Below are positions 10,937-35,942 of a stretch of 35,942 bases of DNA, in pieces; the stretch's first letter is position 1, and every line of letters begins with the position of its first letter. Source of the stretch: Thiotrichaceae bacterium (lineage in GTDB: Bacteria; Pseudomonadota; Gammaproteobacteria; Beggiatoales; Beggiatoaceae); contig JAOZSV010000020.1 in assembly GCA_029939505.1 (NCBI GenBank), positions 1 through 35,942 on the forward strand, read 5' to 3'. The translations under genes and the position numbers were made by a program. The notes beneath the pieces were generated by a model. It made no database searches. It saw only the letters and a list, made by a program, of their open reading frames with translations, and was not told the origin of the DNA.

Positions 10937-13546
10937 ATGAAATTACGACAAAAAATGTTTATTGGCTCGGCCTTTCTCGCCGTGATTCCTGTCCTTATTA
11001 CGGCACTATTTACCAGTCAAATTGCGAGTACTCTTGGACAACAGGCATTAACTGAAAGTGCTAAAAGTCATATTACATCAATTCGAGATGCGAAAAAAGC
11101 ACAAGTAGAAGACCATTTCAACTGGATTTTTAATCAAATTCAAGTCTATGCCAAAGCAAAAACAACTATCGACGCTATGCATGGATTAAATGCCGCTTAT
11201 CCCAAATTTAAGGAAGCAGCCTCCTTACCTACAAGTTTTGCTTTGTCTGAGGATGAAGATGAAACAAATTTTGTTCTATCTGAAGATGAATCAGTTATTG
11301 AAGAAGGCCCTCCTACTCCCTTATCTCTCCCCATTGATGAATACAAAGAAGCATTGAAGACATATTATATTGACGACTTCTCTGAAGAATATGGTAATTT
11401 CAATGTCAATGAAGCACCTGATATGCTCAGATTTCTTAAAGATTTGGACGATAACAGTATTGCGCTACAATATCACTATATTGCTGCCAATCCCAATCCA
11501 ATTGGTACAAAAGAAGAATATTTTGCCGCTTCAGATGCCTCCAGTTATACACAATTGCATAGCCATTACCATCCCTATCTCCATGAGATTCAAATGCGTT
11601 TTGACTTTGCCGATATCTTCTTAGTCGATGCAAACAGTGGTCATATTATTTATTCCGTTATTAAAAAATTAGATTTCGCAACCTCTCTAAAAGAGGGTCC
11701 CTATGCTAAAAGTGGATTAGGGCAAGTTTTTGACAAATTAAATCAAGCCCCGTATGGGAGAATTGAATTAGTTGATTTTGCGTCTTACCTGCCATCCTAT
11801 GATAGCCAAGCCGCTTTTATTGGAACACCTATTTATGAAGGTGAAAAAAGACAAGGAATACTGATATTTCAAATATCTATAGACAGCATTAACGACATTA
11901 TGACAAATCACCGCGTTTGGCGTTTTGATGAATCTGGACGAACCGGGGAAGCCTATATCGTCGCTGCTGATGGCGCAATGCGAAATGATAGCAGAATGCT
12001 TATTGAAGACAAAGAAGATTATCTTCTCAAAGTACAACAAGCCGGGTTATCGGAAAATATCATATCTAATATTGAACTCAAAGACACCAGCGTGGGACTC
12101 CAAAGGGTTGATAATCCAGGTACTCGTGCTGCATTTTCAGGAGTAACCGGGTTTGATCTTTATGAAGATTATCGTGGAGAATTTGTCTTATCCGCCTTTG
12201 CACCAGTTAACGTACCAGGCTTACAATGGGCTATTTTCTCTAATTTGCAAGAACGAGAATCATTAGAACGTTTAGAAGAATTAACGGCTGAAATTACAAC
12301 CGTAGCTGTTCCGATTGCTCTTGTCATTTTATTTTTGGGGGGAATTGCAGGTTTCTTCTTCTTTGGTCGCATTGCAGCCCCTATTGCACAAATGGAAGCC
12401 ACCGTGACAAAAGTCGCTGAAGGTGACTTTACCGCCCGTGCCAACATTAAAACAAATGATGAATTAGAAACCTTGAGTAATGCCTTTAACGGACTACTGG
12501 ATGAACGTCTTACCGCTTTAGCCAAAGCTGAGAAGGAAAATGAAATGCTCAACAATTCCATCATTGAATTGCTCAAAGCCTCCTTCCAGTTAAGTCAACG
12601 TGATCTCACAGTACAAGTACCGGTCACTGAAGACGTAACCGGGCCTTTAGCGGATGCCATTAACCAGATGGCAACTGAGACCAGTAAAGTATTACTTAAT
12701 GTGCGGCGCATTACTGATGATGTGGAATTGGCCTCTAATCAGGTCAAAATACAAGGTCAAAATGTCTCCAATGTGGCGAAGGAAGAGCGGAAAGCGGTAG
12801 ATAGTACCATGACAGAACTGTCAGAAGCGGCAGAAGCGATGAATCAAATTGCTGATGTCGCACAAAAATGTAATGAAACGGCGATTAAAGCAACTCAAAC
12901 CACAGAAACGGCGTTAGTGACCGTGACGGGTACCGTTGAGAGTATTGGTGAAATCAGAGACACCATTCACGAAACTGAAAAGCGAATTAAGCGTCTTGGT
13001 GAACGTGCTCAGGAAATTAGTAGTATTGTGGATATTATTAATAATATTGCTGAACGTACCCACGTACTCGCCTTGAACGCCAGTATGCAAGCCGCCGCAG
13101 CCGGTGAAGCCGGGCGTGGATTTTCTGTGGTTGCAGATGAGGTGCAACGTTTAGCAGAAAGTTCTCGTAATGCCACTTCACAGATTTCTGCTCTCGTGAA
13201 AAATATTCAGGTAGAGACAAACGACACGATTGCGACGATGGACAAAACCATCGGACAAGTGGTTGAAGGTTCTCAATTAGCTGAACAAGCCGGTGAACAA
13301 ATGAAAGATACTCAAAAGACGACCGCAGATTTAGTGCAATTCGTTGAGCAAATTGCAATGGCATCAAGACAGCAAGCACAAAGTAGTGATGATTTGCGAG
13401 AACGAGCAGCGACCATTCAAGAGAGTACCCATGAAACAGCTAAACAATTGGAAGAACAAACAATACAAACGGATAGCTTAGTGGATTATTCTAAGCAATT
13501 GATAGAATCGATTCGGGTATTTAAATTACCCCAAGTCCACGAATAA
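10937..13546 (+). CDS. pilJ: PilJ-type methyl-accepting receptor with large sensor domain
   Basis: Transmembrane chemoreceptor of 869 residues. TM1 at about 8-28; periplasmic domain about 29-455; TM2 at 457-479 (VAVPIALVILFLGGIAGFFF); HAMP about 480-530, then a second HAMP-like unit about 550-605; signalling hairpin about 610-860 with tip RTHVLALNASMQAAAAGEAG near 707. The hairpin matches the PilJ class. The sensor contains RTGEAYIVAADGAMRNDSR, typical of double-Cache receptors, and is much longer than that of Pseudomonas PilJ (about 680 residues overall), so ligand recognition probably differs. It sits between pilI and chpA. A pilK/cheR gene is not present. Confidence 0.9.
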   Translation: MKLRQKMFIGSAFLAVIPVLITALFTSQIASTLGQQALTESAKSHITSIRDAKKAQVEDHFNWIFNQIQVYAKAKTTIDAMHGLNAAYPKFKEAASLPTSFALSEDEDETNFVLSEDESVIEEGPPTPLSLPIDEYKEALKTYYIDDFSEEYGNFNVNEAPDMLRFLKDLDDNSIALQYHYIAANPNPIGTKEEYFAASDASSYTQLHSHYHPYLHEIQMRFDFADIFLVDANSGHIIYSVIKKLDFATSLKEGPYAKSGLGQVFDKLNQAPYGRIELVDFASYLPSYDSQAAFIGTPIYEGEKRQGILIFQISIDSINDIMTNHRVWRFDESGRTGEAYIVAADGAMRNDSRMLIEDKEDYLLKVQQAGLSENIISNIELKDTSVGLQRVDNPGTRAAFSGVTGFDLYEDYRGEFVLSAFAPVNVPGLQWAIFSNLQERESLERLEELTAEITTVAVPIALVILFLGGIAGFFFFGRIAAPIAQMEATVTKVAEGDFTARANIKTNDELETLSNAFNGLLDERLTALAKAEKENEMLNNSIIELLKASFQLSQRDLTVQVPVTEDVTGPLADAINQMATETSKVLLNVRRITDDVELASNQVKIQGQNVSNVAKEERKAVDSTMTELSEAAEAMNQIADVAQKCNETAIKATQTTETALVTVTGTVESIGEIRDTIHETEKRIKRLGERAQEISSIVDIINNIAERTHVLALNASMQAAAAGEAGRGFSVVADEVQRLAESSRNATSQISALVKNIQVETNDTIATMDKTIGQVVEGSQLAEQAGEQMKDTQKTTADLVQFVEQIAMASRQQAQSSDDLRERAATIQESTHETAKQLEEQTIQTDSLVDYSKQLIESIRVFKLPQVHE

Positions 13547-13560
13547 ACCGGTGCAAGTTT

Positions 13561-20362: not shown

Positions 20363-23300
20363 ATGCAGAACACTAATCAAATCAACAATTTACAAAAACG
20401 CTTTTCTCAGAAACGAGAGATTTATCAACAAGCTGATTACATAGAAGCACAAACCCGCATTGATTTTATCAATCCTTTTTTTAGCGCATTAGGTTGGGAT
20501 GTTGAAAATAAAGCCGGGCTGACAGAATCTTATCGACAAGTGGTTTATGAAGATAGACTGAAAATTGACAAAGCACCCTATAAACGCCCAGATTATAGTT
20601 TTCGCGTTGGCGGAGTGCGAAAATTTTTTGTTGAAGCGAAAAAACCCTCAATTTCTCTCTCCACAGATTCAGAATCAGCTTATCAAATTCGCCGCTATGG
20701 TTGGAATGCCAAATTATCGCTGAGTATTCTCACCAATTTTGCCGAATTCGCCGTTTATGATTGCCGCCTGAAACCCGAAAAAGAAGATGATCCCAGCATT
20801 GGGCGCGTGTGGTATCTCAAATATACCGATTATATTGAACATTGGGAAGAATTAGTTGAACGATTTTCTATTGATGCCGTTTGGCAGGGAAAATTTGATC
20901 ACTATGCCGCAGAGACTGCGACAAAAAAAGGCGCTATCGAAGTGGATACCGCTTTTTTGAATGAAATGGAAACTTGGCGCGAAAAATTAGCGCACCATAT
21001 TATTTCAAACAATACCAGCTTAACCCAGCGTCAACTGAACTCTGTTGTTCAGCAAACCATTGATAGAATTATATTTTTACGAATTTGCGAAGATCGGGGA
21101 ATTGAAGATTATGGGCGTTTATTGGGCCTGACTAACGGCCCCCAAATTTATAAACGTTTGTTTGAATTATTCAATCAAGCTGATGAACGTTATAATTCAG
21201 GGCTCTTTCATTTTAGAGAGGAAAAAGGGCGCGAAGCGCCGGATACATTAACATCCCGTTTAAAAATAGGCGATGATGTCTTAAAAAATATCATTCAGAA
21301 TCTGTATTACCCCATAAGCCCTTATGAATTTTCAGTCTTGCCAGCCGATATTTTGGGGCAAGTGTATGAACGATTTTTGGGTAAAGTCATTCGTCTGACA
21401 ACAAAAAATAAGGCCGTTATTGAGGAAAAGCCCGAAGTCAAAAAAGCCGGTGGCGTTTATTACACGCCCCGTTATATTGTTGATTATATTGTAAAACAAA
21501 GCATTGGCAAGCTGTTGGATGAGAAAAAAGTGCAAGCCAATGGTGTTTTGAACAAACTACTGGGTAATGGCAAACTATCAAGCAGTCGCTTGAAAATATT
21601 AGATCCCGCTTGTGGTTCCGGTTCATTTTTACTGGGCGCGTATCAATTCTTGTTGGATTGGCACCTTGAACAATATTTACTTGAACCTGCAAAATGGATG
21701 AAAGGCAAAAAACCGCGTCTTTATCAAGCCATCGGTGGCACTTGGAAATTAACCCTTTCAGAACGCAAACGTATCTTATTAAACAATATTTACGGTGTTG
21801 ATATCGATCCCCAAGCAGTAGAAGTGACTAAGCTATCTTTGTTATTAAAAGTCTTAGAAGATGAAAACAGTGTCATTTCACAACTCTCATTATTTAAAGA
21901 ACGAGTTCTGCCCGATATAAATAATAACATAAAATGTGGTAATTCATTGATTGGACAGGATTTTTATCAAAAACAACAATTAGCACTGATAGATGAAGAA
22001 ACGCAATATCGCATTAATGCCTTTGATTGGGAGAGTGAATTTTTTGACGTGATGCAAGCTGGGGGATTTGATGCCGTGATTGGGAATCCGCCCTATGTTC
22101 GCATTCAAACCCTGAAAGAATGGACCCCTTTAGAAGTCGAATTTTATAAAGTTCACTACCTTGCCGCCAGCGGTAATTATGATATTTATGTGGTTTTCGT
22201 AGAAAAGGGGTTGAATTTGCTTAATGACAAAGGCTATTTAGGTTTTATTTTGCCTCATAAATTTTTTAATGCCAAATACGGTGAATCGTTACGAGGCTTA
22301 TTAGCCAAAGGTAAACATTTGGCAGAAGTGGTTCATTTTGGTGATCAACAAGTTTTTGCGAATGCGACAACTTATACCTGTTTATTGTGTTTGAATAAAC
22401 AAGAGCAGGAATATTTCCATTTTGTCAAAGCACATCATTTATCTGCTTGGCAAAACGACTCAAAAACCGGTATAGCAGAAGACATTGAAACTGATAAGCT
22501 AACGAATGCAGAATGGCATTTTGTCATTGGGGCAGGCAAACCGTTATTTGAACGATTAAATAACATGCCAATCAAGTTAGAAAATATCACCGCAAAAATA
22601 TTTCAAGGGCTGGTAACGGGTGCGGATGCCGTATTTATTATGGAAAAGGTGTCAGAAAATGGCTATCAATCGGCTATTACTGGAAAAACAGTTCAGATTG
22701 AAGCCGATATCATGCACCCTCTTTGCAAAGGTTCTGTCAATTTGAAACGTTATCAAATTATCAATGTGAAAAAATCAATTTTGTTTCCCTATCATTTAAA
22801 AGACGGAACAGCAAAATTATTATCAACGTCAAAACTACAACAACATTTTCCAAAGGCGTGGGCATACTTACTCAAAAATCAATCTCAGCTCGAAGCGCGT
22901 GAAGCGGGAAAATGGCAACACGAAAAGTGGTATGCTTTTGGACGATCTCAAAATCTCAGCGAGATGGAACAAGAAAAAATTTTAACTCCCAGTATTTCAA
23001 ATCAAGCTTCATTTATTTTTGACAAAAGTCATTACTACTTTGTAGGCAGTGGTGGTGGAGGCGGAGGGGGTTATGGCATTGTTCTCAAAGAGCAATACCG
23101 TTCACTTTCTTATCTTTATTTACTGGCTTTATTAAATTCAAAACTACTTGACTGGTTTATCAAACAAATCAGTAGTCCGTTTAGAGGTGGATATTATTCG
23201 TATAATCGGCAATATTTGGAACCGATTCCCATCCGCACTATCGACTTCGACAATCCAACTGACAAAGCCAATCATGATCAACTGGTACAATGGGTTGAAC

Positions 23301-23464
23301 AAATGCTCGCACTCAACAAACAACGGGCGGCTAACAACGATCCTCATACCATGAAAATCATCGAACGCCGAATTGAGGCGACTGATAAACAGATTGATCA
23401 ATTAGTCTATCGCTTGTACGACTTAACAAAGAAAGAGATTGAGATTGTGAAAAAAGGTGCTTAA
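20363..23464 (+). CDS. Type IIG restriction-modification enzyme (Eco57I-like)
   Basis: Single-chain endonuclease/adenine methyltransferase, 1033 residues. The N-terminal PD-(D/E)xK nuclease has Asp77 in KRPDYSF and Glu91-Ala-Lys93 in FFVEAKK. Then a helical linker and a gamma-class N6-adenine methyltransferase: motif I DPACGSGSF (414-422) and motif IV NPPY (575-578), typical of Eco57I/TaqI enzymes. The C-terminal TaqI-C-like recognition region contains a Gly run (SGGGGGGGYG) that the family usually has in shorter form. Specificity cannot be read. All catalytic motifs look intact. The start has no clear ribosome binding site. It splits the chemosensory accessory genes, suggesting later insertion. 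A decayed paralogue begins at the very next base after the stop. Confidence 0.93.
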   Translation: MQNTNQINNLQKRFSQKREIYQQADYIEAQTRIDFINPFFSALGWDVENKAGLTESYRQVVYEDRLKIDKAPYKRPDYSFRVGGVRKFFVEAKKPSISLSTDSESAYQIRRYGWNAKLSLSILTNFAEFAVYDCRLKPEKEDDPSIGRVWYLKYTDYIEHWEELVERFSIDAVWQGKFDHYAAETATKKGAIEVDTAFLNEMETWREKLAHHIISNNTSLTQRQLNSVVQQTIDRIIFLRICEDRGIEDYGRLLGLTNGPQIYKRLFELFNQADERYNSGLFHFREEKGREAPDTLTSRLKIGDDVLKNIIQNLYYPISPYEFSVLPADILGQVYERFLGKVIRLTTKNKAVIEEKPEVKKAGGVYYTPRYIVDYIVKQSIGKLLDEKKVQANGVLNKLLGNGKLSSSRLKILDPACGSGSFLLGAYQFLLDWHLEQYLLEPAKWMKGKKPRLYQAIGGTWKLTLSERKRILLNNIYGVDIDPQAVEVTKLSLLLKVLEDENSVISQLSLFKERVLPDINNNIKCGNSLIGQDFYQKQQLALIDEETQYRINAFDWESEFFDVMQAGGFDAVIGNPPYVRIQTLKEWTPLEVEFYKVHYLAASGNYDIYVVFVEKGLNLLNDKGYLGFILPHKFFNAKYGESLRGLLAKGKHLAEVVHFGDQQVFANATTYTCLLCLNKQEQEYFHFVKAHHLSAWQNDSKTGIAEDIETDKLTNAEWHFVIGAGKPLFERLNNMPIKLENITAKIFQGLVTGADAVFIMEKVSENGYQSAITGKTVQIEADIMHPLCKGSVNLKRYQIINVKKSILFPYHLKDGTAKLLSTSKLQQHFPKAWAYLLKNQSQLEAREAGKWQHEKWYAFGRSQNLSEMEQEKILTPSISNQASFIFDKSHYYFVGSGGGGGGGYGIVLKEQYRSLSYLYLLALLNSKLLDWFIKQISSPFRGGYYSYNRQYLEPIPIRTIDFDNPTDKANHDQLVQWVEQMLALNKQRAANNDPHTMKIIERRIEATDKQIDQLVYRLYDLTKKEIEIVKKGA

Positions 23465-27889: not shown

Positions 27890-27966
27890 CGGAGCGTGGC
27901 GCAGCCTGGTAGCGCACTACCATGGGGCGGTAGGGGTCGTGAGTTCAAATCTCGCCGCTCCGACCA
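27890..27966 (+). tRNA. tRNA-Pro, anticodon GGG
   Basis: 77-nt cloverleaf. The acceptor arm CGGAGCG pairs with CGCTCCG, followed by ACCA encoded in the DNA. D arm GCGC...GCGC; anticodon stem CTACC/GGTAG with loop ATGGGGC, giving anticodon GGG (reads CCC/CCU). T arm GTGAGTTCAAATCTCGC. The CGG start and A73 discriminator are normal for bacterial tRNA-Pro. A T-rich run (27967-27980) follows and may end transcription. Confidence 0.95.
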
Positions 27967-27979
27967 TTTTTTCATTTTT

Positions 27980-28155
27980 TTGTCCAAAGCTAAAGCGTTG
28001 TACTCCAAAGCTAAAGCGTTCTATTCCAAAAACAAAGCTAAAGCGTTCTATTCCAAAGCTAAAGCGTTGTACTCCAAAATTTATACTCCAAAAAACAAAG
28101 CTAAAGCTTTGTACTCCAAAATTTTTCCATACTCCAAAAAACAAAGCTAAAGTTT
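27980..28155 (-). repeat. Dispersed repeat cluster after tRNA-Pro
   Basis: Six or so units of CCAAAGCTAAAGCGTTGTACT type with variable AAAAACAAAG fillers, minus-strand version of the CAACGCTTTAGCTTTGG family. Reading frames on either strand here are repeat translations. Confidence 0.85.
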
Positions 28156-28173
28156 TGCAAGGCAAACCCGCCT

Positions 28174-28367
28174 GATTATACCTATTATTAGGTGGATTTG
28201 ACAGGATAATTTTTTTATTTGGGCAAATTGGCCTGAATTTCCGGTATCAGGGTTTGTAATATGCGGGCAAAATGACAGTATATTCAATATACGGGAAAAT
28301 TGGCCTGATTTATCGGTCAATATCTAGGAATATTAGGGCAAATTGGCCTTATAATAAGTAGTTAGAT
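28174..28367 (+). repeat. 195-bp module, copy 1, ending in core site GTTAGAT
   Basis: About 90% identical to 32833-33026. It contains four spaced GGGCAAATTGGCC-like boxes (about 28221, 28264, 28303, 28336), a TATAAT at 28350-28355, and ends GTAGTTAGAT, a perfect GTTRRRY core. The outer edges are imperfect inverted repeats (CCTATTATTAGG / CCTTATAATAAG). It stands at the left border of the cassette array. It may be an attI-like or long attC-like site, or a MITE that carries a core site. Confidence 0.65.
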
Positions 28368-28433
28368 TGAATCAGAAATTATGTTTTATACATATGGATG
28401 CAAAAAGACGCACCACTGATTTAAGCGTTAGAA
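28368..28433 (+). other. Candidate attC-like site before cassette 1
   Basis: TGAATCAG pairs with CTGATTTA, followed by AGC and the core GTTAGAA (28427-28433). L'-R' text TTTAAGCGTTAG is typical of attC sites. A proper R'' (YAAC) box is missing on the left, so the site may be a fusion with the 195-bp module. Cassette 1 would begin at 28428. Confidence 0.45.
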
Positions 28434-28485
28434 TACACGCCACATGACTATCAAATTTAAATCAATTTAATTAATGGAGACTATG

Positions 28486-28857
28486 ATGAATAAAGTAATA
28501 ACTTTAATTATAATGACTGGGTTATGTTCATTATCGCTATTAACTTTTGCAGACGAACCATCTATTTACATTGATGGTATATGGAAAAATAAAACAGAAG
28601 GAAAGAATTATTACTCTATACAAACAAATGCTAATCAAGTTGTTATGATTGATTTATCCGCTATTGAATCATCAAGTAATACTTTAGAATCATCATATAT
28701 TGGTAATATTAATGATTTGCTTTTAAGTCGGATATCTCCAACTCAAGGTGTTACAAATCAGTTATATTTAAATTTTACCTCAGTTACAGATGGAACGATA
28801 ACAACTATTTGTGAAGTTTGTACAGTTGTACCAATAGAAATTGAAAAGATATTTTAA
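28486..28857 (+). CDS. Cassette 1: small secreted protein with GIW...CxxC domain
   Basis: 123 residues from ATG 28486, which has GGAG at 28476-28479; in-frame ATGs at 28474 and 28483 are less well spaced. A Sec signal peptide (about 1-21, NKVITLIIMTGLCSLSLLTF) precedes mature ADEP. The mature part aligns with the C-terminal domain of the 288-residue proteins at 29930 and 34533: GIW near the start, an L-S-x-I-E then S-S-Y-I-G / S-T-Y-L-G stretch, and a terminal CxxC (Cys109, Cys112) before I-x-I-x-K-I. Function unknown. It lies between the candidate attC at 28427 and attC1. Confidence 0.75.
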   Translation: MNKVITLIIMTGLCSLSLLTFADEPSIYIDGIWKNKTEGKNYYSIQTNANQVVMIDLSAIESSSNTLESSYIGNINDLLLSRISPTQGVTNQLYLNFTSVTDGTITTICEVCTVVPIEIEKIF

Positions 28858-28885
28858 ATGGGGCTAACTCTTTTTGAACCGATTT

Positions 28886-28939
28886 TTCTAACTTTGCCTT
28901 GCACCCGACCTTGACGGTGGGTGAAGAGCGGTGTTATCC
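28886..28939 (+). other. attC-like site 1 (3' end of cassette 1)
   Basis: R'' TTCTAAC (28886-28892), then CTTG-CACCCG ... CGGTGGGT-GAAG imperfect hairpin, then core GTTATCC (28933-28939). R'' is the exact complement of GTTAGAA at 28427, the start of the same cassette, as expected for a cassette that was once circular. Confidence 0.72.
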
Positions 28940-29060
28940 TGATGAAACGTTTCGCCCTTGCTACGCTTCTCCAAGTCGCTTTGGCGCGGGCTACACTCAG
29001 GATAACCAGTCGTTGAATCGGACACTTTACATCCTTGTCTAGTGCCGATTAACATAGGCG
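28934..29060 (+). other. Cassette 2: 127-bp minimal cassette
   Basis: Starts TTATCC and ends in attC2, whose R'' GGATAAC is the exact complement of GTTATCC at its own start. It is more GC-rich than its surroundings. The only frame is a 24-codon one from ATG 28943 (MKRFALATLL...), overlapping the attC; I do not call it a gene. Confidence 0.6.
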
Positions 29061-29066
29061 TTAGTG
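29000..29066 (+). other. attC-like site 2
   Basis: R'' GGATAAC (29000-29006), arms TTGAATCGGACAC / GTGCCGATTAA with an unpaired A, then AGGC and core GTTAGTG (29060-29066). The L' text TTAACATAGGCGTTAG closely follows classic attC style. Confidence 0.75.
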
Positions 29067-29202
29067 AAACAGTTGTATAGTTTATCAATTACTTTTACAG
29101 TTATTATCAGGGGCGGTCGAGATGATATTGGACAGAATACTTAACATCATGTTCAATGTCAGTTTGACCATTACAGTATTTTTCATTTTGAGGTTTATTA
29201 TT

Positions 29203-29805
29203 ATGATTAGAACTTATCAAGTCAAGTCTCTTATTGTGCTTACAATAATGACTGTGGGCTTGTTTAACTTGCCTGCCATCAGTGTGGCAAATTCCGATGT
29301 TTCTCACTTACCCACTGAAACAAGCACACCTTGCACCACTGGGGATTATTGCATCAATGCTAATGGTATATATATTCCACATTATTATCGTTGTAAGTCT
29401 GATGAGAGCTCATGTACAAACCTAGGGCACGGCAACATCAACTTAGAAGGTAGTATGATTTTGCAAAAGAATGGCTGGCTATTGTCTCTTTCTATACCTG
29501 AATTTGATCAGAATGTCCAATTCATTATACCTGAGTTGAATCAGAGTATCCAATTTACTTTTAATGGGAAGGGAGAAAGTGGATTTAGGATTGATTCTAG
29601 TACTGCTCACATCAAGGGAATTAATAGCCAAGGATGTAACGAAGAATTAAATACGTCTGGTCAAACATGTCAAAATTGGTTGGTAGAAATGTGGGTGGAT
29701 ATAAATACCCTTGTTGGTGCTGTGAAAATCGACAGTATTCTTCTTGATGTCCAAGGTGATAAAAGTTGGCAATTTCTCGGATTTTTACGAGTTGCTAGTC
29801 CATAA
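29203..29805 (+). CDS. Cassette 3: exported six-cysteine protein
   Basis: I take ATG 29203 (200 residues), which has GAGG at 29190-29193; the ATG at 29122 would add a second hydrophobic stretch and has no better ribosome site. A signal peptide covers about 1-29 (LIVLTIMTVGLFNLPAISVA). The mature protein has six Cys (44, 50, 64, 71, 145, 156), so up to three disulfides, a beta-rich middle with a repeated IPEFDQNVQFI / IPELNQSIQFT pair, and no known motif. I do not recognise the family. It lies between attC2 and attC3, in the same direction as all cassette genes. Confidence 0.7.
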   Translation: MIRTYQVKSLIVLTIMTVGLFNLPAISVANSDVSHLPTETSTPCTTGDYCINANGIYIPHYYRCKSDESSCTNLGHGNINLEGSMILQKNGWLLSLSIPEFDQNVQFIIPELNQSIQFTFNGKGESGFRIDSSTAHIKGINSQGCNEELNTSGQTCQNWLVEMWVDINTLVGAVKIDSILLDVQGDKSWQFLGFLRVASP

Positions 29806-29822
29806 ATCAATAAAGCATCTTC

Positions 29823-29876
29823 TGCTAACTATGTCTTGGAAGCCGACCTAGCGGCGGCTCAAGAACGATGTTAGCA
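29823..29876 (+). other. attC-like site 3
   Basis: R'' TGCTAAC (29823-29829), CTTGGAAGCCG / CGGCGGCTCAAG imperfect hairpin with unpaired bases and loop ACCTAG, core GTTAGCA (29870-29876). It lies 18 bp after the cassette-3 stop. Confidence 0.75.
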
Positions 29877-29929
29877 ATTCGTACAGTACAGTTATCCGCT
29901 ATTTCAAACTAATCAGAGGAAATCTTAAA

Positions 29930-30796
29930 ATGAAAAAATTTGTGTTAAGCATTATGGTATTACTCTTAACTTCTTTCAACACATTTGCTTGTAGCTGTGC
30001 ACCTGCCCCGTATTTTTTTAAAGCAGTAACGAACATTTCCGTTGATGTGAATGTAGTTTTGCATATTAAAGTACTAAAGAATAATGATGATGGCAGCATT
30101 GACGCACAGGTGCTTGAAGTCTTTAAAGGTGTGGAAGATGCTTCTCAAATCAAAATTAGAGGAAATAATTTTTGCGGCCCAGTCCTAATAGGGTTTGACG
30201 ATGGAACGGAGTGGATTATGCCATTAGCCAAGCTTAATGAACAGAATCAATATATTCATGTGTCGTGCCTTGATTCTCTACAGGTCAAAAAATTGAGTGT
30301 CACAGGATTTATTAGCGACCATTCCGAACAAACTTACACCTTGGAATCTTTTAGAGAGTTATGGAATCTCTATTACAGTGCATTGCAAGTTGGTCGGGAA
30401 CAATGCACAACCGCTGCTTTAAGTAACATCTCCGGTATATGGGCTGGTACTGTAAATAGTAACTGGAATGGCCCTGACGCAAACTATGAAGATGAAATTT
30501 ATCTGTCAATACGCAAAACTACAGATAACATAGCTGTAATCTTTTTATCTTCTATTGAAGCAACCAAAGACTTATTTTCATCAACTTATCTTGGAAAAGA
30601 TTTAAGTAAACTGGACTCGTATGGTGTTAATGCATACTTTCCTGATTTTAATCCGGTTAAACAGTCATTAAACTATATAAACACCTCTTTTCCTATAGGA
30701 ATAGAAATACATGAGGGTAGTCAATCAGGTATTATTCATATACTTTGCGATACATGTGGTTTAAGCTCGGTGATTGTGATACGTAAAATACTATAA
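29930..30796 (+). CDS. Cassette 4: secreted protein with TIMP/NTR-like N-terminal domain (copy 1)
   Basis: 288 residues. Signal peptide 1-20 (KKFVLSIMVLLLTSFNTFA), then a mature N-terminus CSCAPAP. Residues 21-125 follow the bacterial TIMP/netrin-like OB-fold pattern: CSC start, VVLHIKV strand, VLEVFKG, FCG (Cys82), GTEWIM, HVSC (Cys113). Residues about 167-288 form a second domain shared with the cassette-1 protein, ending in CDTC (273-276). AGAGGA precedes the ATG at suitable spacing. Animal TIMPs inhibit metalloproteases through the CSC start; whether the bacterial form does so is unknown. Near-identical to the gene at 34533 over the first 245 residues. Location: periplasm or outside. Confidence 0.78.
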   Translation: MKKFVLSIMVLLLTSFNTFACSCAPAPYFFKAVTNISVDVNVVLHIKVLKNNDDGSIDAQVLEVFKGVEDASQIKIRGNNFCGPVLIGFDDGTEWIMPLAKLNEQNQYIHVSCLDSLQVKKLSVTGFISDHSEQTYTLESFRELWNLYYSALQVGREQCTTAALSNISGIWAGTVNSNWNGPDANYEDEIYLSIRKTTDNIAVIFLSSIEATKDLFSSTYLGKDLSKLDSYGVNAYFPDFNPVKQSLNYINTSFPIGIEIHEGSQSGIIHILCDTCGLSSVIVIRKIL

Positions 30797-30864
30797 AAAA
30801 TAGCTTGTGTAGGATACCGTAAAACTCGTAAGCCGTATATACATGATTAATAAATTGTAATTTG

Positions 30865-30899
30865 GTAGGGTGCATAAGCAATAGCGTCATGCACCTTAC
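30865..30899. repeat. Small palindrome in the cassette-4 3' region
   Basis: GTAGGGTGCATAAGC with TCATGCACCTTAC. The same palindrome and the text around it (CTCGTAAGCCGTATATA upstream) recur at 33907-33940 behind the PhzF gene. Confidence 0.75.
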
Positions 30900-30951
30900 T
30901 CTAACTTTATCTTGGAGGCGGACTTTCAGCCGCTCAAGAATGGTGTTAGTA
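30899..30951 (+). other. attC-like site 4
   Basis: R'' CTCTAAC, CTTGGAGGCGG / CAGCCGCTCAAG imperfect hairpin, core GTTAGTA (30945-30951). It is about 90% identical to the site at 33942. Confidence 0.72.
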
Positions 30952-30979
30952 GGTATGCTCGTTTGCACATTACTTTACC

Positions 30980-31027
30980 TGCTAACTTTGTCTTGCTCTC
31001 CGACCTAGCGGCGGGAGAAGAACGATG
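30980..31027 (+). other. attC-like site 5, R' replaced by intron start
   Basis: R'' TGCTAAC (30980-30986), CTTGCTCTCCG / CGGCGGGAGAAG hairpin, AACGATG; the G at 31027 is where G^TT would be cut. Instead of TTAG the sequence goes on GTGCGATC. The 82-bp stretch from TTAGTA (30946) to here is a minimal cassette: ACCTGCTAAC nearly complements GTTAGTAGGT at its start (9 of 10). Confidence 0.68.
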
Positions 31028-31272
31028 GTGCGATCAGTTTGACCTAAAGTATTGATTTATAATATTTTTTTGTAAATTTATAAAGAAAGGTCAGAGCGTG
31101 AAATGAGTGGTTATCATTTTATGTGATAACTCAAAAGATGTAGGAATAATTCCAGAAAATCGGAAGAAGCTTTTCCTAAATGACCTATAATTTAGCTAAT
31201 ACCCCTATTGGTAGGCAGTCAACCTTCTGGTAAAGCGGGGTGTAATGTGATGAAGGTACGATTAGCCGTGCT
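31028..31272 (+). mobile_element. Group II intron 5' fragment A
   Basis: Begins GTGCGATCAG, matching the group II GUGYG 5' end, and is about 90% identical to 33989-34234. It contains GTGGTTATC/GATAACTC and CTTCTGGTAAAGCGGGGTG segments, which look like domain I pieces. No reverse transcriptase or domain V/VI is present. It is cut off by the small inverted-repeat element at 31279. Confidence 0.6.
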
Positions 31273-31278
31273 AACGAA

Positions 31279-31388
31279 AATAGGGGACACATTTATTTTT
31301 TTCCTCCAACATAATAGAAAAACGACTCGTCTGGACAAAAGATTTTAGCAAAAAATGCTTTGAAAATAAATGTGGTATGTCCCCTATT
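31279..31388. mobile_element. Non-autonomous relative of the RAYT element
   Basis: 110 bp with ends AATAGGGGACACATTTATTT and AAATGTGGTATGTCCCCTATT, the same termini as the RAYT element at 31923-32753, but an unrelated 60-bp interior. Confidence 0.75.
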
Positions 31389-31394
31389 ATATTG

Positions 31395-31413
31395 TTATAA
31401 TAAGTAGTTATGT
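31395..31413 (+). repeat. Stub of the 195-bp module (copy 3)
   Basis: TTATAATAAGTAGTTA is identical to the last part of the module copies, with core GTTATGT instead of GTTAGAT. The rest was apparently replaced by the element on its left. It precedes the NERD gene. Confidence 0.6.
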
Positions 31414-31433
31414 GACAAAAACGAGATCGTAGA

Positions 31434-31927
31434 ATGGACTTTTCACCGATAATTAATCAAGTTGTAGGAGTTCTTTGGTATTTGATACCACTCGTCATTT
31501 TTGCTTATATCCTAAAGTCACCTTGGTTCAAGTCACCTTGGTTCAAGGGTGTGGCAGGTGAGTTTATCGTCAATTTTTCAGCAAAATTGATGCTGGATAA
31601 AGAAAAGTACCATTTGATAAAAAACGTAACTCTACCAACAGAAGATGGAAGCACGCAAATTGATCACATTATTGTTTCAATTTATGGAATATTTGTGGTC
31701 GAAACAAAAAAAAAGATTTTTTCTGGTTCCCACGCGCTGGCGTGGGAACCGATTCTGGACGCGCCAGCGTCCTGTGTAAGTAAACATCGACGCTGGCGCG
31801 TCGTCACTGCATTCCCACGCCAGCGCGTGGGAACGAGAAATTAATTCAAAAACAAGGACTCGATAAAAGTTGGGTATCATGGGCATGGAAACTTGTTAAT
31901 ACTCAAACTTGGATGAAGAATAAATAG
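31434..31927 (+). pseudogene. NERD-domain protein, interrupted
   Basis: The N-terminal part has a membrane segment (VVGVLWYLIPLVIFAYIL) and a NERD nuclease-related start: GVAGEFIVN, then STQIDHIIVSIYGIFVVETK. A 121-bp GC-rich palindrome (31720-31840) then interrupts it and the frame runs to a stop inside the palindrome. Past it, LIQKQGLDKSWVSWAWKLVN continues in another frame and ends at a TAG formed by the left end of the RAYT element. The central NERD part (the usual KGWIFG-W-Q region) is missing. An in-frame 15-bp tandem duplication (SPWFK twice) lies near 31520-31550. A cassette gene in origin, by position. Confidence 0.75.
31720..31840. mobile_element. GC-rich palindromic element inside the NERD gene
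   Basis: Ends TTTCTGGTTCCCACGCGC and GCGCGTGGGAACGAGAAA are near-perfect complements, with inner arms GACGCGCCAGCGTC and GACGCTGGCGCGTC. Much richer in GC than its surroundings, hence probably imported. Confidence 0.8.
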
Positions 31928-32753
31928 GGGACAGACCACATTTTATTTGATATAATTAATGACTGGTTATAATTCTTTAATCTTATACTAATGTCTCGTC
32001 GTTCTCGTTTAAAACTTGATGGAATTCCAATACATCTCATTCAACGTGGCAACAATCGAAATGCCTGTTTCTATGCAGATGAAGATTACCAATTTTACCT
32101 TGAATCTCTTGATGGATATTGCCATGACGAAAAGGTGAAAGTACATGCTTATGTTTTGATGACCAACCACGTTCATATCTTAGTCACACCAACCGATGGA
32201 AATGGCCCATCACGGGTAATGAAACGATTAGGACAACGTTATGTGCAATACATAAATCGTACCTATCGACGGACTGGAAGTTTATGGGAAGGTCGTTTTC
32301 GTTCCAGTTTAGTTGGAGAGGAAAATTATTTTTTGGCTTGCCATCGTTACATAGAACTTAATCCAGTACGAGCCAATATGGTATCTCATCCAGCAGAATA
32401 TCAGTGATCAAGCTACCGAGCAAACGCACAGGGCGAATTTGACCGAGTGCTATCACCCCATTCACTTTACGAAGAACTTGGAAACGATGCAACAGCCCGT
32501 CAAATAGCCTATAAAAAATTATTCTGTTCTGAGTTAGAATATAGTTTACTAAATGAAATTCGTCAGGCAACTAATGGAGGCTACGTGCTTGGAAGTGATA
32601 AATTCAAGCGAGAAGTCGCTTTAGCTATTGGTCGCCGAACTTGGCGTGGAATACCAGGAAGACCGCAAAAAGTACATTTGGAAGAAGGGCAAGGAACACT
32701 TCCATTTTGATAGCCGAGGTTGCCTCAAGAATAAATGTGGTCTGTCCCCTATT
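31923..32753 (+). mobile_element. RAYT (REP-associated tyrosine transposase) element
   Basis: 831 bp bounded by AATAGGGGACAGACCACATT and AAATGTGGTCTGTCCCCTATT. It holds one transposase frame with a single nonsense codon. It sits across the end of the NERD gene. Confidence 0.82.
31991..32710 (+). pseudogene. RAYT Y1 transposase with one nonsense codon
   Basis: IS200-like Y1 transposase (TnpA-REP). HUH-type motif HVHILV near residue 55, preceded by YVLMTNH; the family stretch GSLWEGRFRSSLV; then HRYIELNPVRANMV. The frame is interrupted once by TGA at 32405-32407, in EYQ-stop-SSYRANAQGE, where relatives have Trp (EYxWSSY), so a TGG to TGA change is the simple explanation. After that the same frame continues to 32710 with typical C-terminal text (VLGSDKFKREVALAIGRR). 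Total 239 sense codons. Probably inactive, recently. Confidence 0.88.
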
Positions 32754-32780
32754 TTCTCCCTTTTGAATTTTCAGGAAAAT

Positions 32781-32823
32781 GTCGGGTTACGTTTTTTTGC
32801 TTTGCAAAAAAAGCTAACCCGAC
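32781..32823. repeat. Palindrome GTCGGGTTA / TAACCCGAC
   Basis: GTCGGGTTACGTTTTTTTGC with GCAAAAAAAGCTAACCCGAC. Sits between the RAYT element and the second 195-bp module. Nothing else is seen in 32754-32832. Confidence 0.75.
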
Positions 32824-32832
32824 CTACATAGC

Positions 32833-33026
32833 TAATTATACCTATTATTAGGTGGATTTGACAGGATAATTTTTTTAGAGGGCAAACTGGCCTGAATTTC
32901 CGGTCCCATGGTATGTAATATGCGGGCAAAATGACAGGATATTCAATATGAGGGCAAATTGGCCTGAATTGTCGGTCAATATCTAAGAATATGAGGGCGA
33001 ATTGGCCTTATAATAAGTAGTTAGAT
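32833..33026 (+). repeat. 195-bp module, copy 2, ending in core site GTTAGAT
   Basis: About 90% identical to 28174-28367, including the GGGCAAATTGGCC-like boxes and a TATAAT at 33009-33014. It ends GTAGTTAGAT at 33026, only 16 bp before the PhzF-family ATG, so the core at 33020 would be the left border of that cassette. Confidence 0.7.
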
Positions 33027-33042
33027 TTCGCGAAGGATTTTC

Positions 33043-33822
33043 ATGAAATTAAATATTTATCAAATAGATGCTTTTGCAAATAGAACTCTTGAGGGAAATC
33101 CGGCCGCGATAATACCACTTGATGAATGGTTATCTGATGAATTAATGCAAGCTATTGCGGCAGAAAATAATTTATCAGAAACGGCGTTTTTTGTTCCAAC
33201 AACTGAAGGTTATCATATTCGTTGGTTTACCCCGGTTCACGAAGTGAATTTGTGCGGCCATGCCACAATAGCAAGCTCATACGTACTCTTTAATATGTTG
33301 GGGTACGATAAAGCAGAAATAGAATTTGAGTCAAAAAGTGGTAGATTGATTGTTAAGCAAAAAGGTGAGTGGTTGGAAATGAATTTTCCGTCGCAACCGC
33401 CTATAAAATGTGAAATTCCCCAACAGATACTAGACGTATTTAATGAGAAACCAGTTGAGTGTTTAAAGTCCGAAGATTATCTCGTAGTCTTTGATAATGA
33501 ACAGCAAGTTTTCGATGCTAACCCAAATTATAGCCTTCTCTCAGAGCTAGAATTACGAGGCGTTACCATAACATCAAGATCAGAAAAATATGATTTTGTT
33601 TCAAGGTTTTTTGCGCCAAAATATGGAATTAATGAAGACCCAGTAACCGGCTCTTCCTTTACACAACTTATACCTTATTGGTCAAGCAAATTAAGTAAAA
33701 ATAATTTGTTTGCAAAACAGGTTTCTAAACGAGGCGGTGAAGTGCAATGTTCTTATTTAGGTGATAGAGTACTTATTTCCGGCAAAGCAGCTAAATACAT
33801 GGTTGGTACAATCGAAATCTAA
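33043..33822 (+). CDS. PhzF-family isomerase/epimerase-like protein
   Basis: 259 residues, close to the usual length of the PhzF family (diaminopimelate-epimerase-like double hot-dog-type fold). Family marks: the opening IYQIDAFANRTLEGNPAAII, the catalytic-Glu region NNLSETAFF (Glu about 46), VNLCGHATIAS, and NEDPVTGSSFT in the second half. Substrate unknown; family members act on small cyclic acids. GAAGGA with good spacing precedes ATG 33043. The gene starts 16 bp past the core site GTTAGAT and is followed by attC site 6, as expected of a cassette gene. It is intact. Confidence 0.92.
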   Translation: MKLNIYQIDAFANRTLEGNPAAIIPLDEWLSDELMQAIAAENNLSETAFFVPTTEGYHIRWFTPVHEVNLCGHATIASSYVLFNMLGYDKAEIEFESKSGRLIVKQKGEWLEMNFPSQPPIKCEIPQQILDVFNEKPVECLKSEDYLVVFDNEQQVFDANPNYSLLSELELRGVTITSRSEKYDFVSRFFAPKYGINEDPVTGSSFTQLIPYWSSKLSKNNLFAKQVSKRGGEVQCSYLGDRVLISGKAAKYMVGTIEI

Positions 33823-33941
33823 CAACACAATAAACTCTGACAATTGCAGGTTATTGTAGACGTTAACTCGTAAGCCGTATATATCTTGATTAATAAATTG
33901 TAATTTGTAGGGTGCATAAGCGATAGCGTCATGCACCTTAT

Positions 33942-33988
33942 TTCTAACTTTATCTTGGAGGCCGACCTTCGGCGGCTCAAGAATGGTG
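33942..33988 (+). other. attC-like site 6, R' replaced by intron start
   Basis: R'' TTCTAAC (33942-33948; 6 of 7 complementary to GTTAGAT at the cassette start), CTTGGAGGCCG / CGGCGGCTCAAG imperfect hairpin, AATGGTG ending at G33988. Then GTGCGACC instead of TTAG. The preceding 85 bp match the region before site 4. Confidence 0.7.
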
Positions 33989-34426
33989 GTGCGACCCGTT
34001 TGGCCTAGAGCATTGATTTATAAGAAGTTTTTGTAAATTGATAAAGAAAGGTCAGGACGTGAAATGAGTGGTTATCATTTTGTGTGATAACTCAAAAGAT
34101 GTAGGAATAAGTTTGGAATTAAATCCAAACGAGCTTTCCTAAATGACCTATAATTTAGCTAATACCCCTATTGGTGGGCTGTCAACCTTCTGGTAAAGCG
34201 GGGTGTAACGTGATGAAAGTATGATTAGCCATGCTGAGATTTGCTAGGTAAATGGATATGGTTACGGGAGAAATTACTGCTATACGAAAACATCGTCATT
34301 GAGAATAGGGAATGCTAAGAAAGAACCTATATTTGGTAAGAAGATTCATATTCTAACGCCGTAAAAATATGATAGGAGTCGGTTTCGCAAGAAACATTAC
34401 CACGGTGTAAAGGTTAAAACCTAAGC
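33989..34426 (+). mobile_element. Group II intron 5' fragment B
   Basis: Begins GTGCGACCCG; the first 246 bp match fragment A, and about 190 bp more follow. The text ATTGAGAATAGGGAATGCT and GGTTTCGCAAGAAACATTAC fit domain I to III of a group II ribozyme (from memory of the family, not modelled). No RT gene, no domain V/VI. It is cut off by the palindrome at 34427. Confidence 0.6.
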
Positions 34427-34510
34427 CAGGTAGGGTGGGCAACGTGGGTGCAACGGCACTTTTTTAATGAGGAAGCCGTTGCACTAAAAGGACTTTGCCC
34501 ACCCTACCTG
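34427..34510. repeat. Palindrome CAGGTAGGGTGGGC / GCCCACCCTACCTG
   Basis: 84 bp with perfect 14-bp ends and inner arms GTGCAACGGC / GCCGTTGCAC. It joins the intron fragment to the second copy of the TIMP-like gene. Related GTAGGGTGG arms occur at 8135-8250. Confidence 0.85.
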
Positions 34511-34532
34511 ACTAATCAGAGGAAATCTTAAA

Positions 34533-35399
34533 ATGAAAAAATTTGTGTTAAGCATTATGGTATTACTCTTAACTTCTTTCAACACATTTGCTTGTAGCTG
34601 TGCACCTGCCCCGTATTTTTTTAAAGCAGTAACGAACATTTCCGTTGATGTGAATGTAGTTTTGCATATTAAAGTACTAAAGAATAATGATGATGGCAGC
34701 ATTGACGCACAGGTGCTTGAAGTCTTTAAAGGTGTGGAAGATGCTTCTCAAATCAAAATTAGAGGAAATAATTTTTGCGGCCCAGTCCTAATAGGGTTTG
34801 ACGATGGAACGGAGTGGATTATGCCATTAGCCAAGCTTAATGAACAGAATCAATATATTCATGTGTCGTGCCTTGATTCTCTACAGGTCAAAAAATTGAG
34901 TGTCACAGGATTTATTAGCGACCATTCCGAACAAACTTACACCTTGGAATCTTTTAGAGAGTTATGGAATCTCTATTACAGTGCATTGCAAGTTGGTCGG
35001 GAACAATGCACAACCGCTGCTTTAAGTAACATCTCCGGTATATGGGCTGGTACTGTAAATAGTAACTGGAATGGCCCTGACGCAAACTATGAAGATGAAA
35101 TTTATCTGTCAATACGCAAAACTACAGATAACATAGCTGTAATCTTTTTATCTTCTATTGAAGCAACCAAAGACTTATTTTCATCAACTTATCTTGGAAA
35201 AGATTTAAGTAAACTAGACTCGTATGGTGTTAATGCATACTTTCCTGATTTTAATCCGGTTAAACAGTCACTAAGTTACATAAATACTTCTTTACCTATA
35301 CGGATAAATATACATGAGGGTGGTCAATCCGGCCTTGTTCACGTACTTTGCGATGCATGCAGTATAAGTTCAGTGATTGTAATACAGAAAATACTATAG
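34533..35399 (+). CDS. Secreted protein with TIMP/NTR-like N-terminal domain (copy 2)
   Basis: 288 residues with the same layout as the gene at 29930: signal peptide 1-20, CSC mature start, NTR-like domain, then the GIW...CxxC domain (CDAC at 273-276). DNA identity with copy 1 begins at ACTAATCAGAGG (22 bp before the ATG) and is nearly perfect for about 740 bp; the last 130 bp then differ at many sites, changing residues such as NYINTSF to SYINTSL and GIEIHEGS to RINIHEGG. This pattern fits recombination or gene conversion between diverged cassettes. It is followed by attC site 7. Confidence 0.8.
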   Translation: MKKFVLSIMVLLLTSFNTFACSCAPAPYFFKAVTNISVDVNVVLHIKVLKNNDDGSIDAQVLEVFKGVEDASQIKIRGNNFCGPVLIGFDDGTEWIMPLAKLNEQNQYIHVSCLDSLQVKKLSVTGFISDHSEQTYTLESFRELWNLYYSALQVGREQCTTAALSNISGIWAGTVNSNWNGPDANYEDEIYLSIRKTTDNIAVIFLSSIEATKDLFSSTYLGKDLSKLDSYGVNAYFPDFNPVKQSLSYINTSLPIRINIHEGGQSGLVHVLCDACSISSVIVIQKIL

Positions 35400-35469
35400 A
35401 GTAGTGTTTTAATAATCGAAATAATTGCAAATAATTGAGGGCAGAGTAAAATTAATTCTAACTAAGCGA

Positions 35470-35570
35470 GCGTAGGATGGGTAGGAGCGAAGCGGCACCA
35501 TTTCCAAATCAATGTCATCATCTTTATAATTGGTGGCTGTGGTGGGTTTCACTTCATTCTACCCATACGC
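35470..35570. repeat. Imperfect palindrome of the GTAGGRTGGGT type
   Basis: GCGTAGGATGGGTAG at the left and CTACCCATACGC at the right, with inner CGGCACCATTTCC / AATTGGTGGCTG text. Another partial element (GGGTAGGGTGGGTAAATGG, 35627-35661) follows. No gene is supported between 35400 and 35744. Confidence 0.6.
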
Positions 35571-35678
35571 ATCAACTTAAAGAAATTTTAGTGGTTTCTC
35601 TCTTATTATATATAAGCTGGCAGCCGGGTAGGGTGGGTAAATGGTTTATCGTTGCCCACCTAAATAACCATAAATTAA

Positions 35679-35726
35679 TTTTAACTTAGTCTTGGAATCG
35701 ACGGATGCTCCAGAACCGTGTTAGTT
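35679..35726 (+). other. attC-like site 7
   Basis: R'' TTTTAAC (35679-35685), CTTGGAATCG / CGGATGCTCCAG weak hairpin, core GTTAGTT (35720-35726). The hairpin is shorter than in the other sites. Confidence 0.6.
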
Positions 35727-35744
35727 TCAGAGAAAAGATGACAA

Positions 35745-35942
35745 ATGAAAACTAATCAAATGATGACTGTAAAAATAGGAAACTTTGGGATTTTAGAAAT
35801 TGGTCATAAAACAATGATGGGTAAAGTATCTCAAGTTTTAGAAATGGGTAATAGAAATAGAGAAGCAAAAAATATTGAGTCTATACCTGAGGTGGTTGCG
35901 AGTTTTTATGTGGTACAAAATTCCCTTAGATTTATCAATGTA
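35745..35942 (+). CDS. Start of the next cassette gene, cut by window end
   Basis: 66 codons open to the edge (MKTNQMMTVKIGNFGILEIG, then HKTMMGKVSQVLEMGNRNRE). The core GTTAGTT lies 18 bp upstream, the usual distance in this array. In-frame ATGs also occur at 35760 and 35763. No signal peptide is seen. I do not recognise the family. The ATG at 35739 is closed after five codons and is not the start. Confidence 0.55.
   Translation, partial: MKTNQMMTVKIGNFGILEIGHKTMMGKVSQVLEMGNRNREAKNIESIPEVVASFYVVQNSLRFINV

Follow-up and report, generated by a model that had tools for sequence, protein, structure and literature searches.

Organisation of the locus

The stretch of DNA analysed here, referred to below as the window, is the entire contig C143 (35,942 bp) in the draft genome of a Thiotrichaceae bacterium belonging to the same genus as the metagenome-assembled genome (MAG) B20_G6. 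From position 28172 to the contig end it is occupied by an array of gene cassettes of integron type, the DNA to the right of 35,942 being beyond view. The array is headed by an attI-like recombination site, carries a second copy of that site among its cassettes and contains seven attC sites, two of which are cut at the crossover by putative fragments of group II introns. No intact gene for the integron integrase (IntI) has been found, and stubs of intI occur on other contigs of the same genome. The assembly comprises 5.58 Mb in 497 contigs, its completeness being given as 99.96%. Thioploca and Parabeggiatoa are placed under Thiotrichaceae in the NCBI taxonomy; the papers, as far as they were available, use Beggiatoaceae instead.

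attC sites

Three covariance models have been used in the recognition of attC. The model R1 was built from six sites of the window, and its matches in the window are therefore circular; R2 contains sites of the window genome; R3 was built from the attC of other genomes only (42 rows, 35 of them distinct) and was applied without filters to the entire window. The independence of R3 is incomplete, because its member sites were gathered using R2, in which the sites of the window genome are included. R1 returns its six sites in the window, the next match reaching only 11.4 bits, and at least 23 sites in the whole genome. Under R3 six of the seven attC stand out from chance, with scores of 29.9-66.4 bits and E-values from 4e-13 to 1.6e-4.

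The folded bottom strand of these sites is a hairpin with R and L boxes and bulged bases. In the 23 sites of the window genome, a stem with two bulged positions pairs 93.2% of the cells; 24 cells are changed on both sides as against 7.6 in shuffled alignments (0/500 as high), and the covariation score is 0.217 compared with at most 0.090 for slid versions of the stem. The 35 distinct sites of other genomes behave alike, with 91.7% pairing, 44 double-change cells against 20.2 in shuffles (again 0/500 as high) and a score of 0.237 against at most 0.114. Further pair types do not exceed the shuffles in the first set, and neither the number of double-change pairs nor the further types do so in the second (280/500 and 142/500). 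The three-base block between the two bulges reads GAG/CTC or CTC/GAG, so that compensation in the stem is block-wise.

The remaining site, at 29000, is of a different sequence type, and its assignment as a probable attC rests on anatomy and on a homologous mini-cassette, devoid of an open reading frame (ORF), in B20_G6 rather than on score. The unit that it closes has crossovers at 28933/28934 and 29060/29061. Its homologue in B20_G6 sits behind a different cassette, and the pairing of the hairpin is kept in this homologue (L099) despite a change of C-G to T-A. The mini-cassette that ends with the attC at 30980 also has a related unit, which follows the attI of locus L100.

An earlier note on this DNA, made from the letters alone, had listed these seven sites as a cassette array of integron type. 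The array has proved real, six of the sites being recovered by R3 and the seventh by its anatomy and the L099 homologue. The note had described a CTAAC-type inverse core, an imperfect hairpin and a GTTA core as shared by the sites; 30980 and 33942 have GTGCGA in place of GTTA. It had also placed every site at the 3' end of a plus-strand gene, which is correct for 28886, 29823, 30899, 33942 and 35679 but not for 29000 and 30980, both of which end ORF-less mini-cassettes. Failure of an attC model together with a lack of unpaired bases had been named as reasons to give up the idea; R3 does give matches, and the covarying stem has two bulged positions.

It could be argued that the sites are not attC but members of a repeat family, such as terminators or miniature transposable elements, lying behind genes by chance. 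Inverted repeats abound in the genome, several of them within the array, and a 76-base element directly precedes the sites at 30899 and 33942. The core ends of the sites are nevertheless conserved, the two bulges and the block-wise compensation recur in their stems, the boundaries of the units change partner between genomes, and the sites are linked to attI and to an intact intI in the related genome G034. We regard a repeat family as very improbable.

The 76-base element (AACTCGTAAGCC...ATGCACCTTA) is found at 30823-30898 and 33865-33940; in related genomes (L051, L086, L099, L103, L122) it turns up again next to attC or attI. It may represent a miniature transposable element or a cassette without an ORF.

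attI copies

The first attI copy of the window is a segment of about 195 bp that ends in ..TATAATAAGTAG/TTAG at 28361, the slash marking the crossover; this G is exactly the position at which the array had been proposed to start. Segments homologous to the window copies are found on contigs C82 and C335 of the same genome, where each precedes a truncated intI that is read divergently. The DNA upstream of the intact intI of the related genome G021 aligns with window copies 1 and 2 (E 1.6e-23 and 4e-26). In G034 (L053) the whole layout is preserved, an intact intI being followed by an attI ending in CTTATAATGAATGG/TTAGG and then by three attC of the same family as those of the window. Homology with the attI of the window is seen on the attI side of the intact integrons of both G034 and G021.

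Twenty junctions have been compared, namely 29 attI-like matches less 10 in which the likeness stops short of the crossover, plus the G034 site. All 20 are alike as far as the G and diverge from each other within about 10 bases beyond it. A same-strand ORF of at least 60 codons begins within 150 bp past the crossover at 16/20, and the hexamer TATAAT stands 7 bases before the crossover at 16/20, four of the 20 junctions (L100, L101, L104, L105) having been found solely by a pattern that includes TATAAT. That pattern search gave 13 loci, of which five, from other taxa and with no likeness upstream of the pattern, were set aside as chance. When L104, which has 411 bases of downstream sequence, and L130 are left out, 18 junctions remain, of which eight have an attC of this family no more than about 1 kb downstream: both window copies, L099, L100, L101, L110, L126 and L053.

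The locus L100 (JAOZMR010000199.1), a 5.5-kb contig labelled Pontiellaceae, was retained among the junctions as this attI stands at its start and five attC of the window family lie on it. It is probably misbinned DNA of a sulfur bacterium.

The attI segment is matched in 6 of the 36 genomes searched. Copies reaching GTTAG number five in the window genome (one, on C340, over the last 69 bp only), four in G021 and two in B20_G6. The copies of the window genome are 89-98% alike and three of those in G021 94-95%, the likeness between these two groups being 72-77%. The attI beside intI in G021 is without the GTTAG end and shares 80-81% with the other three; one copy of B20_G6 is 99% like three copies of the window genome over about 125 positions. 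For this comparison 13 of 23 aligned stretches were used; a tree of the 13 copies had one starred branch of ten (window genome, HSG14 and B20_G6) and was not used.

Two other views of the attI segment have been rejected. As a mobile unit it should have a common left boundary, on which the two window copies agree within a few bases and the other copies do not. The attI repeats might also be the TAACTGA repeats known from marine Beggiatoaceae under another name; an 8-base version of the latter, the only one searched, has 5 matches in the window and 0 in the array, and 7/100 shuffles reached 5.

Integrase remnants and the nature of the array

None of the reading frames of the window encodes IntI, and neither attI copy has intI at its side. 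In the whole genome the IntI model TIGR02249 has two N-terminal matches, the better of which scores 52.7 bits over model residues 2-69 against a cut-off of 265. With the intI product of G034 (335 residues, 428 bits under the same model) as query, three stubs are seen, on C82 (residues 8-82), C335 (7-41) and C319 (2-31, with a stop), the first two adjoining attI copies; beyond these there is nothing at E 0.001. The Phage_integrase family PF00589 has no match in the genome, all of 14 controls being positive. An intact intI has accordingly not been seen in this genome.

Matches above the IntI cut-off occur in 5 of 36 genomes of the family, the window genome being counted among the 36 (G015, G017, G021, G023 and G034). 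Neither of the two other genomes in the genus has an intact intI, and B20_G6 has a stub beside an attI copy. With R2 we have identified at least 24 attC in the window genome (6 in the window and 9 on contig C249), at least 10 in B20_G6, 4 in G002, 41 in G021, 8 in G009, 1 in G017 and 1 in G019; these are lower bounds, at most 150 first-look candidates having been scored per genome, and none was found among the candidates scored in the remaining 29 of the 36. The genomes can be arranged in a graded series. G034 has intact intI, attI and attC; G021 has an intact intI, a damaged attI and separate arrays; the window genome and B20_G6 have stubs and arrays; G002 has few sites and no intI match.

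These observations make it very likely, as judged from sequence, that the array is part of the chromosomal integron of a Thioploca/Parabeggiatoa relative, now reduced to an integrase-less relic of the type known as CALIN (cluster of attC sites lacking integron integrases). IntegronFinder reports as CALIN at least two attC with no integron integrase, according to the part of PMC9024848 available. The absence of IntI from the window and the CALIN-like character of the array, both put forward in the earlier note, are borne out, the former extending to the genome apart from the stubs. That interpretation is incomplete, as an attI heads the array and a second lies inside it, intI stubs are found on other contigs, and putative intron fragments interrupt two sites.

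Four points weigh against the reading as a relic. The assembly is a draft of 497 contigs with the array reaching a contig end, and an intact intI may be unassembled. The site at 29000 is at noise level under R3, its 15.8 bits being followed by 15.3 bits for the next match, at 22558. At 10 of the 18 attI junctions (L038, L039, L040, L102, L103, L105, L114, L118, L119, L131) there is no attC of this family within about 1 kb of the sequence checked. A sigma-70 scan of attI copy 1 places no promoter at the TATAAT and gives 2 sites as against 2.1 in shuffles.

The first of these points leads to the alternative of a working integron in pieces, whose intact integrase gene lies in unassembled or unbinned DNA and continues to act on the array. 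Integrons are known to be broken up in draft assemblies (PMC9024848, in the text available), and in the related species G021 the single intact intI is on a contig (C301) with no attC match among the candidates scored. The high completeness, the three stubs (two of them beside attI copies), the lack of an intact intI in the two other genomes of the genus and the absence of an adjoining intI from both window attI make this alternative improbable.

A dispersed integron has more in its favour, and we hold it possible though rather unlikely. Here a module of attI and promoter would have split from intI and multiplied, several arrays being served in trans by one integrase, now or formerly. It is in keeping with the several GTTAG-ending attI per genome and with G021, where the attI beside the one intact intI lacks that end and two of the four other attI have attC close downstream. 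The greater likeness of the copies within a genome than between the window genome and G021 also agrees with it. The duplications may nevertheless predate the species split, because the intI-side copy of G021 is only 80-81% like the other three there and a B20_G6 copy is 99% like three of the window genome, and the copies have different left ends, so that no fixed unit is seen. An identical picture would arise if whole integrons had been duplicated and had then lost intI except for stubs.

Apart from IntI, the recombinases XerC and XerD also seem to be missing from the window genome and much of its family. Nine of 23 family genomes are without any match to PF00589, and a match above 150 bits is present in 1/23 (G005), compared with 12/13 genomes of other families in the class.

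Putative group II intron fragments at attC crossovers

The attC at 30980 and 33942 are interrupted at the crossover, GATG or GGTG being followed by GTGCGA in place of the R' core. Both of the stretches that follow start right after the G of R' and run in the cassette direction; their likeness is 88% over about 245 bp, and no further match to them is seen in the window genome. Related DNA is found in 3 of 42 family genomes, the window genome included, and distant blastn searches of plasmids and Escherichia coli genomes gave no match. The stretches have a GUGYG-type start only and no Rfam match as group II intron. They are presumed to be group II intron fragments, from this start and from their relatedness to apparently full-length introns in G060. 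A relative of the second fragment on contig C307 of G060 likewise follows an attC-like hairpin.

G060, a genome of 8.4 Mb in the same family, has 13 matches to the window intron fragment, some of them elements that look full-length and lie in ordinary genes. One element of G060 (L169) has the GTGCGA start, a match to RF00029 and a 577-residue protein that scores 325 bits with TIGR04416 (cut-off 300) and shows HNH-family similarity below the cut-off; it is not situated in an attC. L167 also matches RF00029.

The 5' ends of related elements have been compared in 15 rows, L103 being dropped as a chance match to the pattern. Elements of the type GTTTG.C....ATTGATTTA stand behind attC-like DNA and in the cassette direction in 7 of 8 contexts, the attC calls being made by eye. 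The insertion point is right after the G of R' in 6/7 and further inside the site once; the eighth context, L165, is not attC-like. Elements with the GTTTC.. type of end stand behind attC-like DNA in 0/6 contexts. Some of the attC called by eye outside the window have support from the model (L099, 30.8 bits; L148, 26.2; L150, 20.1; L147, 18.2 with E 0.1), and L151 has no model match up to E 0.5.

Proposed history of the array

The cassettes of the relic would once have been captured by IntI recombining the attI at G28361/T28362 with the folded bottom strand of attC, which is the established integron mechanism. The intI gene would then have decayed to N-terminal stubs in its own genome. With intI present as stubs only and the search for a tyrosine recombinase negative, the array has probably become frozen, and its cassettes would be immobile unless an integrase comes from outside. 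Transcription of the cassettes may continue, perhaps driven by a promoter whose end is the TATAAT just inside attI; expression from attI is at most plausible, the sigma-70 scan being negative there. The decay appears to be ongoing. Two attC may have lost their R' core to group II introns entering on the gene strand, the 3' parts of the introns being lost later. Further signs of decay would be the gene duplication, the transposase gene and the hairpin repeats that lie between.

Cassette genes and setting of the array

The features of the array are given in Table 1. The first cassette protein (28474) is 29% identical over 93 residues to the product of a gene in the other large array of the genome, on C249 (E 5e-10). 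The 288-residue protein at 29930 has relatives in 3 of 42 family genomes, the window genome included. Structure prediction without an alignment gave no usable fold for this protein (mean pLDDT 31.4) or for the 227-residue one (43.0). The ORF with the NERD domain runs into an inverted repeat, I2 (31720-31840), and the ORF of the transposase is closed by a stop codon that lies in frame with the following ORF (32447-32710). The ORF at 35745 resembles a KilA-N-like cassette gene of C249 (51% identity over 46 residues).

Table 1. Features of the cassette array in the window
Feature	Position	Strand	Remarks
attI copy 1	28172..28365	+	Crossover G28361/T28362; 90-91% identical to segments before the intI stubs of C82 and C335
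Cassette 1 gene, 127 aa	28474..28857	+	Exported-looking by eye; no Pfam or NCBIfam family
attC 1	28886..28939	+	R1 65.8 bits, R3 60.3 bits
ORF-less mini-cassette, 127 bp	28934..29060	+	Homologous unit in B20_G6 (L099, 1971-2103)
attC 2 (probable)	29000..29066	+	Different sequence type; R3 15.8 bits, E 0.34, rank 7
Cassette gene, 227 aa	29122..29805	+	No Pfam or NCBIfam family
attC 3	29823..29876	+	R1 74.5 bits, R3 66.3 bits
Cassette gene, 288 aa	29930..30796	+	No Pfam or NCBIfam family
attC 4	30899..30951	+	R1 69.7 bits, R3 66.4 bits
attC 5	30980..31027	+	Ends ORF-less mini-cassette; R' core replaced by putative intron start; R1 55.1, R3 49.4 bits
Group II intron 5' fragment 1 (putative)	31028..31275	+	GTGCGA start; 88% identical to fragment 2
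Start of NERD-domain gene	31434..31844	+	PF08378, 52.3 bits over 67 residues
IS200-like (Y1) transposase ORF	31991..32407	+	PF01797, 61 bits
attI copy 2, within array	32832..33024	+	Crossover G33020/T33021; 91% identical to copy 1
Cassette gene, PhzF-family isomerase	33043..33822	+	PF02567, 187.7 bits; TIGR00654, 127.2 bits
attC 6	33942..33988	+	R' core replaced by putative intron start; R1 62.3, R3 55.2 bits
Group II intron fragment 2, 5' part (putative)	33989..34430	+	87% identical to G060 C307 over first 364 bases
Second copy of 29930 gene	34533..35399	+	Proteins 96% identical
attC 7	35679..35726	+	R1 52.6 bits, R3 29.9 bits (E 1.6e-4)
Start of next cassette gene	35745..35942	+	Cut by contig end; 66 codons open

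The two copies of the 288-residue gene belong to a repeat in which 29908-30612 equals 34511-35215, 705 bases without mismatch; the 893 bp compared contain 31 mismatches. Such a repeat with differing 3' gene parts may represent a recent duplication, gene conversion or an effect of assembly.

Toxin-antitoxin cassettes are usual in chromosomal integrons. The products of the C249 array include a SUKH protein, a HicA toxin and, scoring below the Pfam cut-off, a KilA-N-like protein; the ORF that precedes the HicA gene has a UPF0150 match below the cut-off. The HicA gene and its likely partner (G000:C249:10836-11239, L036) lie in an array with nine attC. A dihydroorotate dehydrogenase gene follows this array, at 11959.

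The left part of the window, up to about 27.5 kb, consists of what we take to be chromosomal genes, by eye of type IV pilus, chemotaxis-like and glmU-like kinds. One tRNA at 27890, the sole Rfam match of the window at gathering level, is located between these genes and the array. Tandem-like repeats of about 21-27 bases (CAAAGCTAAAGCGTT...) fill 27985-28166, from the tRNA to attI copy 1, and similar repeats are carried by the translations of the ORFs at 13551 and 24322. A large gene at 20363-23464 combines Pfam domains of the Eco57I/MmeI-type methylase, HSDR_N-like and TaqI_C-like kinds and resembles type IIG restriction-modification systems. Two plant miRNA families returned by a permissive Rfam scan of the array fall on inverted repeats and were taken as chance.

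Comparison with known systems and significance

One close counterpart is the chromosomal integron of G034 (L053) in the same family, which has a homologous attI ending in TATAATGAATGG/TTAGG and the same attC family and differs in its intact intI. The CALINs and inactivated chromosomal integrons of Xanthomonas (PMC12444791) are similar in that arrays are left at several loci per genome after intI has been broken or lost. They differ in that the remaining intI keeps to one locus (ilvD), and several attI copies per genome are not mentioned in the portion of that paper available. A literature search on integrons in Beggiatoa, Thiomargarita and Thioploca found no report in the texts accessible to it.

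Group II introns entering attC are known as the group IIC-attC introns. As described in the available part of PMC7923331, these lie opposite to the cassettes and mostly at TTGT/T; the two window fragments share the direction of the cassettes and begin at the R' crossover, and neither site shows the opposite orientation or the TTGT/T insertion. The IIB1 intron UHB.I2, described in the same part, also runs in the cassette direction and adjoins an attC; its boundary is UUGCG as against GUGCG here, and it represents one reported insertion, as against one intron type that stands behind attC-like DNA in 7 of 8 contexts here. In Thiomargarita nelsonii, one of the related bacteria, introns of the class IIB2 encode a reverse transcriptase (RT), maturase and HNH (PMC4853749, in part), similar to the RT/maturase and HNH-like part of the G060 relative. 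The likeness is one of protein parts only, and the words integron and integrase are absent from the main text of that paper as far as available.

What appears to go beyond an ordinary CALIN, on the evidence of draft genomes, is the presence of several attI copies per genome and the entry of introns into attC at the crossover on the gene strand. It can be suggested, tentatively and with limited confidence, that a type of integron common to Thioploca, Parabeggiatoa and Thiomargarita combines dispersed attI arrays, served in trans where intI survives, with RT-HNH introns that home to the attC crossover on the gene strand and thereby lock the cassettes. Given the graded series from G034 through G021 to the window genome and B20_G6, and finally G002, integron decay and the fate of frozen cassettes are testable in this family. 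Introns that seek attC would be a second machine recognising these sites, on the strand opposite to that of the IIC-attC introns.

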